The translations under genes were made by a program, and so were the position numbers. From positions 1 to 40,139 of the IMG/VR virus record IMGVR_UViG_3300032322_001884: a stretch of 40,139 bases of DNA. The stretch is one strand, 5' to 3'. This document shows, piece by piece, positions 23,723 through 30,193 of the stretch. The DNA is from a virus. Numbering within the stretch: the stretch's first letter is position 1; each line of letters starts with the position of its first letter. The notes beneath the pieces were generated by a model. That model was not told the origin of the DNA, did not search any database, and saw only the letters and a program-made list of their open reading frames with translations.

Positions 23723-24779
23723 TGCTAAGACTCTCCATATAAAGATCCTTAATAATAAGTTTTAACTTATTTTTGTCTTCTATTTGTTCCATCCCATCTA
23801 TTTCCTTCGAAATAATTGTGATTGTATCTTCGCTTACATCTACTTCTGTATCATCCATTTTTGATGAGATGCTGGTATCTTCAATAATTTGAATTCCGTA
23901 AACACCCACAGAATTTAAAGAATCTACCATCGTATCTAGAAGTTTTGAATTTTTCTTATTTACAACAACAATTTTGATATATGAGTCTTTGTACTTATCA
24001 TATTTTGCTTTTGTTAATGCCTTGACGAAAGCTTCATCACCATCATCATATCGAAGAGTATAAAACAGATTCTTTTTATTCTCTATAAAGGTTATTTCTC
24101 TGGTTTGTGTATCAAATACGTGAAAACCTTTTTTGCTTCCAACATCAGCAAAAGATAACTGGTATTGTGTGCCGAGATAATGAATATTTTTGTGTGTTTG
24201 TTTCAAATGAAAATGACCAGAAAATACTTTATCATAATTATTGAAGATAAAACTTTCTACACCACCTTCATGTCGAATACCAGAAATAACTTCAAATCCA
24301 TTGATCTCAAAATGACCACATAGAATAGAACATGAGTTATTTTGAATGAAATTTACACAATCATCAAAATTTTCTGGTGTAATCCATGGAACTATTCCTA
24401 CACACATACCGTCAAATACAATATCAGATGGTTCTTCATATAATTTAATATTATTATATCCATAGGAAAATAATTCTTTTATAGAATTTACATGATTTGA
24501 ATTTTTATAAAAAACGTCATGATTTCCTAAAGTAATATGTAATGTAATACCATATTCATCGAATTTATTCATAAATCTGGTTCTTACTTGACCTAAAGTA
24601 TTAAAATTAACATACTTTCTACGATCAAGTAAATCACCCATATGAATTACATTGGTAATATTATTTTCTTTTAAATATGGAAAAAATATATTTTCAAAAT
24701 AATCTAAAGAATAATTTAAAAATATCGGAGAATCATTACGAACTCCAAAATGTGTATCTGAAATAATAGCAATTTTCAT
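23715..24779 (-). CDS. gp47: Recombination endonuclease subunit, Mre11-like (gp47)
   Basis: A 354-residue metallophosphoesterase (T4 gp47 is 339). Phosphoesterase motifs are in order: SDTHFG with D8 and H10, HMGDLLDRR with D49, TLGNHDVFY with N86 and H87, LCGHFEI with H156, and VFSGHFHLKQ with H189 and H191. These bind two Mn ions. It forms the end-resecting nuclease with gp46. Its ATG overlaps the stop of gene 55 by 4 bases. The C-terminal residues beyond about 260 are acidic and family-specific. Confidence 0.95.
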   Translation of the reverse strand: MKIAIISDTHFGVRNDSPIFLNYSLDYFENIFFPYLKENNITNVIHMGDLLDRRKYVNFNTLGQVRTRFMNKFDEYGITLHITLGNHDVFYKNSNHVNSIKELFSYGYNNIKLYEEPSDIVFDGMCVGIVPWITPENFDDCVNFIQNNSCSILCGHFEINGFEVISGIRHEGGVESFIFNNYDKVFSGHFHLKQTHKNIHYLGTQYQLSFADVGSKKGFHVFDTQTREITFIENKKNLFYTLRYDDGDEAFVKALTKAKYDKYKDSYIKIVVVNKKNSKLLDTMVDSLNSVGVYGIQIIEDTSISSKMDDTEVDVSEDTITIISKEIDGMEQIEDKNKLKLIIKDLYMESLSSE

Positions 24780-25339
24780 GATTTCTTTTTTGATTTTTTA
24801 CCGCGTTTTTTCTTTACTTTTTCTTTGGCTTCCATTTTTTCTATATCGTTTTCAGATAAGAAAAATGTGTGCTGAAGAAATTCACCAAAAGTAGATGATC
24901 CTTGATTATTTTGTAGCCAATCTACAAATTTTCCATCAACATCATTCATCTGTAAGCATTTATATTTTATGAAAGATTGTTTCTTTTCTCTTTCTATTCG
25001 ACGCAAAAAAGCGTAATAAATTATTTGTGTAAAATATGAGAATGGATTTGATGATTTCTCAGAATCAAAATTGTGAGCGTATGCTATACAATTTTCTATA
25101 CCATCACCAACCATATCTTCTCTAAAAGGGTAATTAATAAAATTAGGCCGTTGAGAAAGATGTTCAGCGATCATTATAAAGCATTCTGCTATATAATCCG
25201 TTACTGGTGGTCGCTTCTGACCTTTCTTTTCGGCCTTTTTGACTTCCTTTTTCCACTCATTCATGGATTTAAGGAATTTTTCGTTGTCAACGTAATGTCT
25301 TAATGATTTTAATTCTTTTTCTACTATATCTTCTGCCAT
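24776..25339 (-). CDS. gp55: Late-transcription sigma factor (gp55)
   Basis: A 187-residue homologue of T4 gp55 (185 aa), a minimal sigma factor that directs host RNA polymerase to NATAAATA late promoters. FDSEKSSNPFSYFTQIIYYA (residues 91-110) and FLRRIEREKK are the sigma region 2-like core that reads the -10 box. I start it at the ATG at 25339, preceded by GAGGAG. A longer frame from 25357 would use an ATG that lies inside the promoter's TATAAT and cannot be in the mRNA. The C-terminus is a lysine-rich tail (EKVKKKRGKKSKKK); the hydrophobic-acidic clamp-binding peptide that ends T4 gp55 (SLDFLYE) is not seen. Confidence 0.93.
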   Translation of the reverse strand: MAEDIVEKELKSLRHYVDNEKFLKSMNEWKKEVKKAEKKGQKRPPVTDYIAECFIMIAEHLSQRPNFINYPFREDMVGDGIENCIAYAHNFDSEKSSNPFSYFTQIIYYAFLRRIEREKKQSFIKYKCLQMNDVDGKFVDWLQNNQGSSTFGEFLQHTFFLSENDIEKMEAKEKVKKKRGKKSKKKS

Positions 25340-25355
25340 TTTGTACTCCTCTTTC

Positions 25356-25383
25356 ATTATAACAGATTCCTATAAAATTTCAA
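25356..25383 (-). promoter_or_regulatory. Sigma70-type promoter for gene 55
   Basis: Minus strand TTGAAA (25383-25378), 16-base spacer, then extended -10 TGTTATAAT with TATAAT at 25361-25356. The start of transcription near 25349 leaves a short leader with GGAG before the ATG at 25339. This would allow early expression of the late sigma factor and of 47 and 46. Confidence 0.75.
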
Positions 25384-25391
25384 GTTTTTAC

Positions 25392-25419
25392 TTGACACTT
25401 TTTATGTTTCTATTATAAT
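25392..25419 (+). promoter_or_regulatory. Perfect-consensus sigma70 promoter facing the plus strand
   Basis: TTGACA at 25392-25397, a 16-base spacer, and TATAAT at 25414-25419. Its -35 lies only 8 bases from the -35 of the divergent gene 55 promoter, and the two -35 elements are joined by the inverted repeat CAAGTTTTTACTTG (25381-25394). No plus-strand gene follows; the transcript, starting near 25426, would be antisense to the Lsm-like gene and uvsW. Confidence 0.6.
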
Positions 25420-25478
25420 TCCCCTTGTGGGGAGAGAAAGGGATAAACTATTAATACTTAGTTACTAATAGTAAGTAA

Positions 25479-26219
25479 TCAAGAATCTAATGGACCTAAA
25501 GGATCTTCTTCATTGTAATCAGCAGATTTAGGATCTGGGTTCCAATCAGATAATTTATTACCAAAATCTTCTCTCTTCTTCTCATCACCAGTAAAATTAT
25601 TTTTTTTCTTTACTTCTTCAATTATTTCTAATAATTGTTCTGGGTCAAGAATACCAGAAGTAATAAGATTCATTATACACTCTGGTGGTATAACCATAGA
25701 AAGATAAATCATCGGTCTTTCTTTTAATTCATCTGGAATTAAAGCTTCTAATGTTAATTCATCTGGCTCTGGTGGTAATGGTCTTCTCTTTTTATTTTTT
25801 CTTCTTTTTCTTGATGGTTCTTGTTTAGCAAGATCTGTTAGGTTATTCATGAAAGAATTCATAATTTCATCAAGAGGATTTGCAAAATTATTCTTCAAGT
25901 CATCTGAATTGAGAATTTGTTGTGATGATACATCACTTTTGGATATTTCAATTTTATATAATTCAAGAGTTTTTTCATTTGGACTGAATAAAATTGATAT
26001 TTGTTCTTTAGGCAGATCTGCTATTTTTTCATCTGATCGATACATCCAATCCTTTAGGATTGTAACATCGTGTGGCACACCTCTTGTGTCCAGCATAGTT
26101 GCTGTTTTAAAAACCATAGGATTTTCAATTTTAAGAACAGAATCACTGTCATTATTTAAAAGATTACCAATTATTTCTTCACCACTAATTAGTTTGAAGA
26201 TTTTTGTATTCTTGTTCAT
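25479..26219 (-). CDS. Conserved phage protein with N-terminal Lsm-like domain
   Basis: A 246-residue protein. Residues 5-95 begin FKLISGEEIIGNLLNNDSD and SVLKIENPMVF, a pattern like Sm/Lsm beta-barrels (one strand with GEEIIG, then a K-x-P-hydrophobic strand), and include TILKDWMYRSD and FSPNEKTLELY. A basic linker (SRKRRKNKKRRPLPP, about residues 134-148) joins to RPMIYLSMVIPPE and an acidic tail. Its position between uvsW and gene 55 is where marine T4-like phages carry a conserved hypothetical gene. RNA binding is suggested by the Lsm-like part but not proven. ATGA overlap with uvsW. Confidence 0.65.
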   Translation of the reverse strand: MNKNTKIFKLISGEEIIGNLLNNDSDSVLKIENPMVFKTATMLDTRGVPHDVTILKDWMYRSDEKIADLPKEQISILFSPNEKTLELYKIEISKSDVSSQQILNSDDLKNNFANPLDEIMNSFMNNLTDLAKQEPSRKRRKNKKRRPLPPEPDELTLEALIPDELKERPMIYLSMVIPPECIMNLITSGILDPEQLLEIIEEVKKKNNFTGDEKKREDFGNKLSDWNPDPKSADYNEEDPLGPLDS

Positions 26220-27676
26220 GTGTCTCCTAGCTTCACTTTTATAGTTTTATATGTGAACTTCTCATTATTATATATGGTCAAACGCTCATCCATATGTCTT
26301 AGCGTATGGTTTCGATATGATTTATAGTGTAAATCATCACTAATATCGTATACTACAACATTATCTTTGGTTTCGGATTTTCTCAACCCTCTACCTATTG
26401 ATTGCAAGACACGCACAACTGATTTAGAGGGAGAAGCAAAAATAATAGCATTGATATTTTTAATATTAATACCAGTGCTACATGTTCCGTAAGATGCCAC
26501 AAGAACACTATTGGTATGATTATTAACAATATTTCTTATTAGTTCTCGTTCTTCTATATCAGTTTTTCCGTGAATCTGAAAAACATCTTTTTTATTCTTT
26601 TGTTTTATCTTACTATAAAGAGGAATACCATGTTTTTCTACAAAATTATAGAGCACAAGAACATTACCTTTAATTTTACAAGCTAAATCAGCTATAAAAT
26701 TATTTCTGTATTCATTTGTAATTAACCATTCTATTTCTTGTGCATATAGTGGTTTTTTTGGAAATTGATCATAAGATAATAATATGTTATTAATATTTAA
26801 TTTTGATAAGATATTATCATCAATTAATTCTTTGGTTGTAGTTACTGCATAAGACCTACCAAATAAACCCTCTATAATTAGTTTATGAGCTTCTGTATTA
26901 TCTAGTGTACCTGTAGTTCCTATACGGTATTTTGTTTGCTTCATTTTGCGAACAAGTAAAGACAAAGATTTTGCTTTGAATAAATGGCATTCATCACCAA
27001 AGATTCCATCAAATTCATTAAAAAATGATTCTGGTTCTTTAAAAATACTTTGCCATGTCGATATAATAATTCTTTTACTTGTTGTTTTTTCTTTACCAGC
27101 AAAAATTGTATGAATTTTTTGTAAAAATTTAATATCTTTATTTGAATAATCAGCAAAATCATTATACAATTGATTTACAAGACCAGTTGTTGGCACTACA
27201 ATTAAATACTTTTTTTGATCTTTTTCTAAAAGATATTTTAGAATCAAATATATTATTAATGATTTTCCACTACCAGTGGGGGAAAGAAGTAATATTCTTT
27301 GCTTTGTTAATGCTTTTTTAACAGCATCTATTTGATAATCGTGGGGCTTTAGCTTTTTCTTATTAGAATAAATTTTTTGCTGAGAAATCCATATATCAAT
27401 AGAAGATTCATCAATTATAGATTGATCAAAATTTATCTGATATGAATAATTTCTTTCTTTAAGAAATTTTATTATATAATCCAATAGACCAGCATAAATT
27501 GTTTTGGATGCTAGATTAAATAATCTAATTTTACCATCCCATTTCTTTTTTCTATAAGCTGGTGTGTATTCATGATTTGGTACTTTGAATGTGAAAAAGG
27601 ATGAAAGTTCTCTTGCGATATCTTCTTCGCATTTTACTTTTATGAAACTTTCATCAACTTTTTCTATTTCAATCAT
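26216..27676 (-). CDS. uvsW: RNA-DNA and DNA helicase UvsW
   Basis: A 486-residue superfamily 2 helicase (T4 UvsW is 503). Q-like motif KPHDYQIDAV (residues 110-119), Walker A SPTGSGKS (132-139), DEAD-type DECH (228-231), motif III-like GTTGTL (253-258), and motif VI QSIGRGLRKS (425-434). UvsW unwinds R-loops and branched DNA, shifting replication from origin to recombination dependence. The N-terminal domain (residues 1-100), with YRKKKWDGKIRLF, matches the T4 DNA-binding region. It starts coupled to uvsY (ATGA overlap). Confidence 0.94.
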   Translation of the reverse strand: MIEIEKVDESFIKVKCEEDIARELSSFFTFKVPNHEYTPAYRKKKWDGKIRLFNLASKTIYAGLLDYIIKFLKERNYSYQINFDQSIIDESSIDIWISQQKIYSNKKKLKPHDYQIDAVKKALTKQRILLLSPTGSGKSLIIYLILKYLLEKDQKKYLIVVPTTGLVNQLYNDFADYSNKDIKFLQKIHTIFAGKEKTTSKRIIISTWQSIFKEPESFFNEFDGIFGDECHLFKAKSLSLLVRKMKQTKYRIGTTGTLDNTEAHKLIIEGLFGRSYAVTTTKELIDDNILSKLNINNILLSYDQFPKKPLYAQEIEWLITNEYRNNFIADLACKIKGNVLVLYNFVEKHGIPLYSKIKQKNKKDVFQIHGKTDIEERELIRNIVNNHTNSVLVASYGTCSTGINIKNINAIIFASPSKSVVRVLQSIGRGLRKSETKDNVVVYDISDDLHYKSYRNHTLRHMDERLTIYNNEKFTYKTIKVKLGDT

Positions 27677-28110
27677 GAAAGACCTTGAGTAAATTTAACC
27701 CACTCAATCGCAGATTTGATATTCCATCCACGATTGGACATTATCTTAATTACATTTTCTAAGTAATTTACTTTTTCTCTTTGTTGTTCAACTTTAATTT
27801 TAATATCAGAATATTGTTTATCTGCTTCTATAAAACGGTCAACATCTTGTTTTATTACAGCAAGATCAAATGGTTCCCATTTATGTTTTTTGAGATCTTC
27901 TTCACTCATTTTACCTGTATAGTAAAGCCATTTATCTTTTTCTGTAATTTTTAAGATTGATTCCATAAGATTTAGATTATGTTTTTCATCAAGTAAAAAA
28001 CACAAATACTTATTATGTAATTGAGGTGATCTTAATGCTTCAGAGCCTAATTCTGTTGAATCAATTTCAAGATCTTCTTCTACTAATTTTTTCAATTCAT
28101 TTATAGTCAT
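27673..28110 (-). CDS. uvsY: Recombination mediator UvsY
   Basis: A 145-residue protein (T4 UvsY is 137). IDSTELGSEALRSPQLHNKY (residues 16-35) matches the T4 segment with IDSTKL-YEAANNVMLYSK. A mid-protein KWLYYTGK parallels T4 LDYYSGR, and the C-terminus has IMSNRGWNIKSAIEW like T4 KSRGFAIKHI. UvsY loads recombinase UvsX onto gp32-coated DNA. It is the first gene of the uvsY-uvsW-Lsm operon under a sigma70-type promoter, with little leader and no clear ribosome site. Confidence 0.92.
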   Translation of the reverse strand: MTINELKKLVEEDLEIDSTELGSEALRSPQLHNKYLCFLLDEKHNLNLMESILKITEKDKWLYYTGKMSEEDLKKHKWEPFDLAVIKQDVDRFIEADKQYSDIKIKVEQQREKVNYLENVIKIMSNRGWNIKSAIEWVKFTQGLS

Positions 28111-28120
28111 AATAAAAAAA

Positions 28121-28149
28121 ATTATATAATTAAATAGTCTCTAAGTCAA
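28121..28149 (-). promoter_or_regulatory. Sigma70-type promoter for uvsY
   Basis: Minus strand TTGACT (28149-28144), 17-base spacer, TATAAT (28126-28121). The -35 element is inside the end of the upstream gene. The predicted start near 28114 is about four bases before the ATG at 28110, again giving an almost leaderless mRNA. Confidence 0.65.
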
Positions 28150-28684
28150 AATAAGAATACGCAAAATTTACAGAAGCAATAATATTATCTGTATCTGGTA
28201 ATGTAGTATCAAAATCAATACCACTTAAGAAGGTAGGAAAGATATCATAGAATCTAACTTTTAGAAATGGTCTATATGAACTATTTAGGATCAATAATGA
28301 AGCATTTGAAGTTTGTTGTTCTTCTTTAAGAATTGAACAATTATTTCCATAATATGTTATTGCTTTAATCCAATTATGAATTTCTTTCCAATTTAATAAA
28401 TCCTCATCGATAGCAAATCCAACTTGAAATTCTTCCAAAGTAACATTTGTACCTGGTCTTTGTATTTGAATTGCTGTTGGTGTATTCTGTATAGAAATAC
28501 CTAATGATACAGATGGTACATTTGCTCTTTGGCAGAAATATACCAATGTAGGACATCTATCAAGAATAAAAATAAATTTATTATTGGTTAAAAAATTAGT
28601 ATTTACTGGAATTGATGGATTTGATGTTAAAAAATCTCCAGGTAAATATTGCTTAACAGAATCTGGTATATTGTTAAATCCCAT
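28130..28684 (-). CDS. Tail-tube-fold protein (gp19 paralogue; position of gp3 in marine T4-like phages)
   Basis: A 184-residue protein. TNNKFIFILDRCPTLVYFCQ (residues 32-51) aligns with the tube protein pattern NRFMVNFTFP...IYCKAT; VPSVSLGI, then QIQRPGTNVTLEEFQVGF and IHNWIKAI match the corresponding strands and helix (PPSAIGQI, RPVKFSGE, FERWIDRM) of gp19 at 34256-34828. It follows gene 23 behind a terminator with its own leaderless late box. Marine T4-like phages have a gene often annotated gp3 (tail completion) here. It may cap the tube, start it at the baseplate, or be an alternative tube subunit. The fold call is inferred from pattern, and the role is open. Confidence 0.65.
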   Translation of the reverse strand: MGFNNIPDSVKQYLPGDFLTSNPSIPVNTNFLTNNKFIFILDRCPTLVYFCQRANVPSVSLGISIQNTPTAIQIQRPGTNVTLEEFQVGFAIDEDLLNWKEIHNWIKAITYYGNNCSILKEEQQTSNASLLILNSSYRPFLKVRFYDIFPTFLSGIDFDTTLPDTDNIIASVNFAYSYFDLETI

Positions 28685-28697: not shown

Positions 28698-28703
28698 AAA
28701 TAA

Positions 28704-28731
28704 CAAAGGGTTGGTTTTACCCAACCCTTTG
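28704..28731 (-). terminator. Terminator after the major capsid gene
   Basis: Perfect 11-bp inverted repeat CAAAGGGTTGG/CCAACCCTTTG (28704-28714 with 28721-28731, 6-base loop). On the minus strand it is followed by TTATTTTATAA, moderately T-rich. It lies in the 72-base gap after the stop of gene 23. Confidence 0.75.
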
Positions 28732-28756
28732 CTTTTATTTTTTCATTCAGCCTTTA

Positions 28757-30193
28757 TTATGAGGCTCCATTACCATGAAGATCAAGGACGCGGAACAGAC
28801 GGTAATAGGTGTTTAGACCATCACCTAGACCAACATTAGCGGTACGACCACCAGCGAATGGATTTGCAACCATGCCGTAGCGAGTCTTGAAGCCGATCTT
28901 TGGTTGGAAGGTATTTTCACCGACTGCACGTACCATTTGTAGAGGAACGTATGGGCAGTAGAACATACCAGCATCATATGGTGATTGACCCTTATAACCA
29001 ACACAGACGAAATCAACGCCAGCTGGAACGAACGGATCGATATAAACCTTGAACTTACCGTTAAGGACACCAGCAAATACGTTACCAGTATCATCAACAT
29101 TCATTTGAACATTGAGTGCTGGTGAGAGATTAAGGAATCCACCCATTGCAAGTGCTGATGCAACATCTGCGCTGCAAAGAATGAAGTTACCCTTACCTCT
29201 ACGAGTTTCTTTAGCGATTACGTTTGCTTCGCGTTCGATTTGGTACATTAAACCACGATAACGCTCTGCTGACCAACGACCATCGGAGTCCGATAAGAGG
29301 CTATAATCGCCTGCTTTAGAAAGATCAGTTTGTTGAGCACCAGCCTTAGCTGAAGCGTAGACTGCGCGAATGATTTCTCTATTGATTTCGTTGAGAATTT
29401 CAACTGAGAGAATATTTGCGAGTTCTGATTCTGCATCAAGACCGTGGACTGCTTTAAGATCTTGTGCAAGTTCTGTGGTGTATTCTGCCTTGAGAGCACG
29501 TGTACGAGCTTCTACAGCGACACGCTCAATGCTGAATGCCATTTCACGGAAACCTGTTGCCACACCAGCAGTATTATCTTGGGAAGATGATGTGGAAAGA
29601 TTTTCTGCTTGACCTGTAAGGAATCCGCGGAAATAGTTAAATTGACCAGCTCTATTAGATGCAGCACCAGTCCAACCAGTACCACCAGAACCAAACGGAT
29701 TGCTATAGGTATAACCACCAGAATAACCACCAGTAGATGAACCATAGCTATATGTACCACCGCAAACACCAGCGAAAGAAGCAATTGGTTCATCAAACAT
29801 TGCCTCTGGACCAACTTGGCTATCATATCTTGCTCTCATCGCAAAGATAAGACCAGTTGGTGCAGTCATTGGCTGAACGCCAGCGACATCATATGCAACA
29901 ACATTTGGCATTGCTCTGCGAACAAGACTAATGAGAATTGGGTCGTAACCTTGAAGTGCTGAGTTTGTACCAGCAACAGATGTGCTTGCAAAACCACCAG
30001 CATTCATTGCATTGGTTGGAGCTTCGGTCAAGAAACCAGCTTGTTCTCTGAGTGCTTTTCTTTGATTTTCAAGAAGAACTGCGGTTGTCTTCTTACGATA
30101 AACATCATCGATGTTGGGTAGATCTGGATGATCTATGACCGCATTCCATTTTTCTAAAAGTGTGTCGTAGGGTGTAACGCTATTAAAGTCCAT
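28757..30193 (-). CDS. gp23: Major capsid protein precursor (gp23)
   Basis: A 478-residue HK97-fold capsid protein (T4 gp23 is 521). A prohead protease site FLTE-A (cut after Glu57) matches the [LI]-x-E rule and the T4 cut at Glu65; the mature chain would be 421 residues. LISLVRRAMPNVVAYDVAGV and TGLIFAMRARY (residues about 88-125) are the conserved N-arm/E-loop landmarks; RYGMVANPF is the C-terminal landmark. Codon and base use here are less AT-rich than in the glycan island, as expected of a highly made protein. It has a late box at 30215-30222 and a strong AGGAGAAAAT ribosome site. No gene 24 vertex paralogue follows. Confidence 0.97.
   Translation of the reverse strand: MDFNSVTPYDTLLEKWNAVIDHPDLPNIDDVYRKKTTAVLLENQRKALREQAGFLTEAPTNAMNAGGFASTSVAGTNSALQGYDPILISLVRRAMPNVVAYDVAGVQPMTAPTGLIFAMRARYDSQVGPEAMFDEPIASFAGVCGGTYSYGSSTGGYSGGYTYSNPFGSGGTGWTGAASNRAGQFNYFRGFLTGQAENLSTSSSQDNTAGVATGFREMAFSIERVAVEARTRALKAEYTTELAQDLKAVHGLDAESELANILSVEILNEINREIIRAVYASAKAGAQQTDLSKAGDYSLLSDSDGRWSAERYRGLMYQIEREANVIAKETRRGKGNFILCSADVASALAMGGFLNLSPALNVQMNVDDTGNVFAGVLNGKFKVYIDPFVPAGVDFVCVGYKGQSPYDAGMFYCPYVPLQMVRAVGENTFQPKIGFKTRYGMVANPFAGGRTANVGLGDGLNTYYRLFRVLDLHGNGAS

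Follow-up and report, generated by a model that had tools for sequence, protein, structure and literature searches.

A conserved sigma70 promoter antisense to the uvsW-GC139 operon beside gene 55 of marine T4-like phages, a candidate R-loop origin

The window, by which we mean the whole stretch of DNA analysed here (40,139 nucleotides, IMG/VR virus record IMGVR_UViG_3300032322_001884), comes from a T4-like marine phage. Judged by gene 55 DNA, it is closest among named phages to Pelagibacter phage HTVC008M and the Methylophilales Melnitz phages. The genes around the gene 55 gap all run leftward, and the description of the genes as leftward in an earlier note on this DNA is borne out for the region. 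Profile matches near the gap also identify gp47 and gp46, while the GC139-family gene gave a Pfam Sm_like match only below the Pfam cut-off in the profile search. The genes and features at the gap are, in order of position:

24776-25339, - strand: gene 55, late sigma factor (PHROG 234, E 9e-59), with an alternative start at 25357
25356-25361, - strand: -10 box TATAAT (extended) of the gene 55 promoter, read from the sequence; the sense promoter is conserved
25378-25383, - strand: -35 box TTGAAA of the same conserved gene 55 promoter, read from the sequence
25381-25394, no strand assigned: CAAGTTTTTACTTG, a by-product of two abutting -35 boxes
25392-25397, + strand: -35 box TTGACA of the rightward (antisense) promoter, read from the sequence and conserved in relatives
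25414-25419, + strand: -10 box TATAAT of the rightward promoter, after a 16-bp spacer, likewise conserved in relatives
25420-25433, + strand: dyad TCCCC-TTGT-GGGGA, directly 3' of the -10 box and centred on the predicted start; the arms vary and the pairing is kept
25426-25427, + strand: predicted +1 of the rightward RNA, placed 7-8 nt past the -10 box by sigma70 geometry, with a conserved TG
25429-25443, + strand: GGGGAGAGAAAGGGA, the G-rich, purine-rich start of the predicted RNA
25479-26219, - strand: Sm-like gene of the T4-GC139 ("methylamine utilization") family (PHROG 471, E 2e-9; synteny with P-SSM4)
26216-27676, - strand: uvsW helicase (Pfam UvsW_N, E 2e-12; also a PHROG profile)
27673-28110, - strand: uvsY recombination mediator (Pfam UvsY, E 2e-26)

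Several other features of these genes were observed. The GC139 Sm-like protein of the window (25479-26219, - strand) has 246 aa, ~100 residues more than that of P-SSM4 (146 aa), and contains a basic stretch and an acidic C-terminal tail. The leader of gene 55 (24776-25357, - strand) is very short, with the ribosome-binding site and start located a few bases past the -10 box. An 11/12 sigma70 promoter lies immediately before uvsY (28149-28121, - strand), and thus the uvsY-uvsW-GC139 operon may have early sense transcription too. A strong bidirectional terminator-like hairpin (28702-28733), with a stem of 11-13 bp and T-rich tails on both sides, separates the gene at 28757-30193 from the tail-tube-like gene at 28130-28684. 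In Melnitz-1 (L002, 3318-3413), an annotated short ORF opposite gene 55 overlaps the gene 55 start and the gap, and is probably spurious.

When both strands of the window were scanned, TTGACA-N16-TATAAT at 25392-25419 was the sole 12/12 sigma70 match, and both its position and its + strand agree with the earlier note. A perfect match is expected by chance 0.24 times per window. Since 20 of 100 shuffles contain one, a single 12/12 match is weak evidence alone, and conservation carries the case. Gene 55 loci were taken from IMG/VR and named phages, the upstream sequence was scanned, and near-duplicates were removed, which gave 169 gaps. Among these non-redundant gaps, 50 have a best rightward promoter of 12/12, 66 one of 11/12 and 42 one of 10/12; a score of 11/12 is found in ~0.7% of shuffled sequence (simple shuffles). 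The 145 elements having a TTGAC -35 box and a start-site TG were retained for the later tests, and the rightward promoter is at the same place in these 145 non-redundant relatives, among them SAR11 and cyanobacterial phages. The element is present in HTVC008M, Mosig, P-SSM4, Syn33, S-SKS1, Syn9 and Stenotrophomonas phage DLP_6, and Melnitz carries a weaker rightward promoter with a short distance between the -35 and -10 boxes. Searching the whole of IMG/VR for the promoter plus start motif gave 20 sites, of which 17 lie in the gap between uvsW-GC139 and gene 55. The boxes TTGACA and TATAAT, separated by 16-18 bp, are conserved and above chance, as is characteristic of sigma70 promoters.

An orphan element on the contig IMGVR_UViG_3300035698_021897 (L099) was rejected as a chance look-alike, since the contig has no gp55 or uvsW match, and eight perfect promoters on one contig strand and a nearby terminator also speak against it. 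At L099 11740-11960, this look-alike promoter, with a TCTCTGTGTGGGGG start, is located within an array of GGGACTCC repeats. The terminator is within ~110 nt, and a short RNA is possible.

On the opposite strand, the gene 55 promoter scores 11/12 (TTGAAA, 16 bp, TATAAT, with an extended -10), and a leftward gene 55 promoter of at least 11/12 was found in 92 of 141 gaps against ~0.4 expected. The rightward promoter does stand back to back with a near-consensus leftward promoter, as the earlier note had proposed. Its further proposal of divergent early promoters, the rightward one being functional, is upheld by conservation of both far above chance (169 and 141 relatives' gaps). Marine T4-like phages (Kyanoviridae) and some of their relatives have two divergent sigma70 promoters in the uvsW-GC139/gene 55 gap, and the -35 boxes of the two overlap in 38 of 117 cases and are separated by at most 15 bp in 21. 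The inverted repeat CAAGTTTTTACTTG does link the -35 boxes at 25381-25394 as had been noticed, but the suggested role as an operator is unsupported. Its arms are portions of the outward-facing -35 boxes CTTGAAA and CTTGACA, and cyanophages have TTGACAN4TGTCAA in its place. The CAAG...CTTG operator was thus rejected, the repeat being simply the two abutting -35 boxes. Conservation in related phages had been proposed as a check for all of these elements: TTGACA and TATAAT are kept widely, whereas CAAG...CTTG is kept in close relatives only. We consider it almost certain that a conserved functional antisense promoter lies beside gene 55, and very probable that the rightward RNA is made early in infection.

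The position of the element follows the GC139 gene. In the 145 relatives, the predicted start is located a median of 27 nt past the GC139 stop codon, and the element stays near the GC139 3' end even when gene 55 is hundreds of bp off (~790 bp, four loci). On account of this constant place, the element is better assigned to the uvsW-GC139 operon, at its end, than to gene 55. The rightward RNA, if made, would be antisense to the GC139 gene first and to uvsW next.

The start of the predicted RNA is G-rich in the relatives as well, with a G skew of +0.48 at 11-20 nt past the -10 box (145 relatives). The R-loop energy at +1 to +29 favours the hybrid, but equally so in the sense gene 55 leader, and is not distinctive. 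At 31-60 nt past the -10 box the A+T content is 0.69-0.71, compared with ~0.64 further on, a weak candidate for an A+T-rich unwinding element. Past ~+25 of the predicted RNA, no conserved consensus was found in the 145 relatives. The predicted RNA gave no Rfam match, its folding across relatives was hardly above control (z of -0.53 vs -0.38 in a control stretch), and the GC139 codons, with only 33 distinct sequences, showed no clear drop or gradient in synonymous change. A structured downstream RNA was rejected on these three grounds, and the conserved sequence or fold expected of a structured or trans-acting sRNA was not found. The short inverted repeats that the earlier note had placed near the RNA start, at 25448-25471, are present (ACTATTA/TAATAGT, 25447-25472), but they are not conserved and the folding is close to that of the control. 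Since the promoter is conserved while the RNA content past ~25 nt varies freely, these sequences suggest that the act of transcription, or the RNA 5' end, may matter rather than a specific RNA.

The dyad directly past the -10 box was overlooked in the earlier note. Its TG(T) centre is located 6-8 nt past the -10 box, on the predicted start site. The dyads in relatives include AGGCA-TG-TGCCT, AACGG-TGT-CCGTT, AACCT-TGTGG-AGGTT, CAACTG-TGT-CAGTTG and GGTCTA-TG-TAGACC. Since at least 22 different perfect stems of at least 5 pairs replace each other while the TG centre stays nearly constant, the pairing is conserved and not the letters. We counted 45 perfect stems, compared with 11.5 +/- 2.8 after swapping the right arms among phages, a test that is inflated by kinship. 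Two other tests are less affected: among mutually dissimilar sequences only, ~6 stems of at least 5 pairs were observed vs 0.9, and such stems occur in 22% of the elements vs 5% of 99 same-shaped promoters at other phage loci, these controls being drawn from a looser IMG/VR pattern that is uninformative as a search itself. The stems of most elements are imperfect, and the dyad represents a strong tendency rather than a rule. Among the other strong promoters of HTVC008M, Syn33 and the window, none has a stem of at least 5 pairs so placed, except one within an HTVC008M gene. To our knowledge, the start-site dyad matches no textbook promoter class. Since the left arm falls before the predicted +1, the dyad cannot fold as a hairpin within the rightward RNA, barring an atypical start. 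The dyad could arise in the displaced DNA strand of a transcription bubble or an R-loop, act as a protein site, or fold as part of the sense RNA. A strand test on imperfect stems (G.T vs A.C) leans weakly to the + strand.

We tentatively take an early R-loop replication origin as the leading model, followed closely by antisense timing of uvsW, with an operator in third place; the first two both presuppose that the rightward RNA is made. The earlier note had suggested a regulatory antisense or non-coding RNA as well as transcription that primes replication, and the two leading models correspond to these suggestions. The R-loop origin is ranked first because, in the T4 record, the oriF RNA also runs from downstream towards the uvsW 3' end, and the promoter here reads into the site in that orientation. 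The R-loop origins of T4 need a promoter and an A+T-rich region and no specific RNA, and their downstream sequence is replaceable; the primer end is very likely produced by RNase H, and UvsW, made late, clears the R-loop (PMC3016281). The free downstream sequence of the present element fits an R-loop origin, since that of the T4 origin can be replaced. In such a mechanism, unmodified host RNA polymerase would fire the rightward promoter early in infection, and the G-rich nascent RNA would stay paired with the template strand, forming an R-loop. Re-annealing would be hindered by a small hairpin in the displaced strand, which would thereby help the R-loop. Since a displaced strand stabilised by single-strand-binding protein raises the R-loop frequency in vitro (PMC12478114), this role seems reasonable as a proposal for so short a hairpin. 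Phage RNase H would then trim the RNA, which would prime leading-strand synthesis towards uvsW, and the origin would be off once late transcription has set in and the R-loop has been unwound by UvsW, as happens in T4. Genes for UvsW, the gp41 loader and RNase H are all present in HTVC008M.

Cyanomyoviruses are without motA, and a single origin has been predicted for Syn9 (PMC2984593). The element has no MotA-dependent middle promoter of the kind found at oriF and oriG, though not at oriE, and no MotA dependence is expected because a consensus -35 box is present. This bars membership of oriF but not the mode of action of an R-loop origin. The third-position skew of the window is +0.13 to the left of the gap and -0.07 to the right. 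This contrast was promising but was dropped as support for an origin, since the skew switch of a general origin was not found at the gap in HTVC008M, Syn33 and Syn9. In Syn9 and HTVC008M, the turning points of the GC skew and of other skews are located 10-35 kb from the gap, although T4-type multi-origin replication need not show a strand-composition switch. Also speaking against the origin are the weakness of the A+T-rich element, the equally favourable hybrid start of the gene 55 leader, the lack of a start-site dyad at T4 oriF and the merely slight lean of the strand test. A more specific form of the origin model seems rather unlikely to us: the start-site palindrome, by folding in the displaced strand, would turn an ordinary strong sigma70 promoter into the replication origin of the marine T4-like phages, a promoter-plus-hairpin R-loop origin shared by phages of SAR11, of cyanobacteria and of Stenotrophomonas and located beside uvsW, the gene of its off-switch.

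The promoter may instead serve as an antisense timing switch, in which early polymerase running against the uvsW-GC139 message, together with antisense RNA, keeps UvsW low until late transcription; this is possible, if doubtful. The antisense direction and the linkage to the GC139/uvsW 3' end in 145 relatives agree with it, as do the antisense RNA CfrI known in cyanophage S-PM2 and the finding that T4 UvsW, made from a late promoter, shuts off origins (PMC3016281). Neither added conservation nor structure was seen in the antisense sequence, though interference would need neither, and the start-site dyad would be left unexplained. Where the promoters overlap, competition with the gene 55 promoter may take part in the switch, with a similarly doubtful standing. 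The overlapping or close -35 boxes described above favour such competition, but the promoters are >50 bp apart in some relatives and it cannot be general.

The remaining readings start from the dyad or deny a function. A palindrome over the predicted +1, nearly unique to the rightward promoter among the promoters examined, would suit an operator at which a phage or host repressor shuts this promoter, the arms following changes of the repressor. However, at least 22 perfect stems that vary even among related phages around a near-constant TG are unusual for a protein site, and we consider the operator improbable. The location of the dyad ~20-35 nt past the GC139 stop is the usual place for a sense-RNA hairpin near the end of the uvsW-GC139 message, acting as a weak terminator, stabiliser or processing site separately from the promoter. 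This is very unlikely, as the stems of 4-6 bp are followed by ATTATA with no T run, unlike in an intrinsic terminator, and the dyad position is fixed relative to the -10 box. The A.C combinations, which would be G.U in the sense RNA, are if anything rarer (0.060 vs a null of 0.096 +/- 0.016). Finally, bacterial promoters often have divergent start sites and the region is A+T rich, which would allow the rightward promoter to be a by-product, that is, functionless divergent transcription from an A+T-rich sigma70 promoter. The separate near-consensus -35 and -10 boxes in 145 relatives, the start-site dyad and the position tied to GC139 instead of gene 55 make this the least probable of the readings.

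We found no description of the rightward promoter in the parts of the literature examined. The Syn9 transcriptome study, reportedly that of Doron et al. in 2016, may already contain the start site, and the novelty of the promoter is provisional. The DLP_6 and Melnitz genome papers, in the passages found, mention promoters but not the rightward one. Likewise, no mapping of cyanomyovirus or pelagimyophage origins beyond the Syn9 prediction was found in the parts of the literature examined. The element provides one precise conserved place to test for an origin in marine T4-like phages, and changes that swap the dyad arms make experiments on structure versus sequence simple. If the antisense model is true, it would help explain the timing of UvsW and the early-to-late switch in phages without MotA.

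Compared with known systems, the element resembles T4 oriF/ori(uvsY) in that the promoter RNA is directed at the uvsW 3' end, and T4 needs no specific downstream sequence. The relatives of the window also encode uvsW, and HTVC008M has RNase H as well. However, the T4 oriF RNA is the protein-coding uvsY message from a MotA-dependent middle promoter, whereas the element here is a consensus sigma70 promoter with a predicted non-coding RNA, a candidate origin. Unlike at oriF, uvsY is located here beyond uvsW and in the same orientation as uvsW, and no start-site dyad was found in the T4 oriF sequence. T4 oriE, like the present element, apparently uses an early sigma70-type promoter (PMC3016281), but its gene neighbourhood is different and its mechanism in T4 is incompletely known. 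Antisense transcription in a cyanomyovirus is represented by CfrI of S-PM2 (PMC2984593, PMC5931967), which lies at psbA and was experimentally demonstrated, while that at uvsW-GC139/gene 55 is predicted from the promoter alone. The element shares the consensus -35 and -10 boxes and spacing with the sigma70 early promoters of Kyanoviridae, and differs in being antisense, conserved in place and equipped with a start-site palindrome, which the other strong promoters examined lack.
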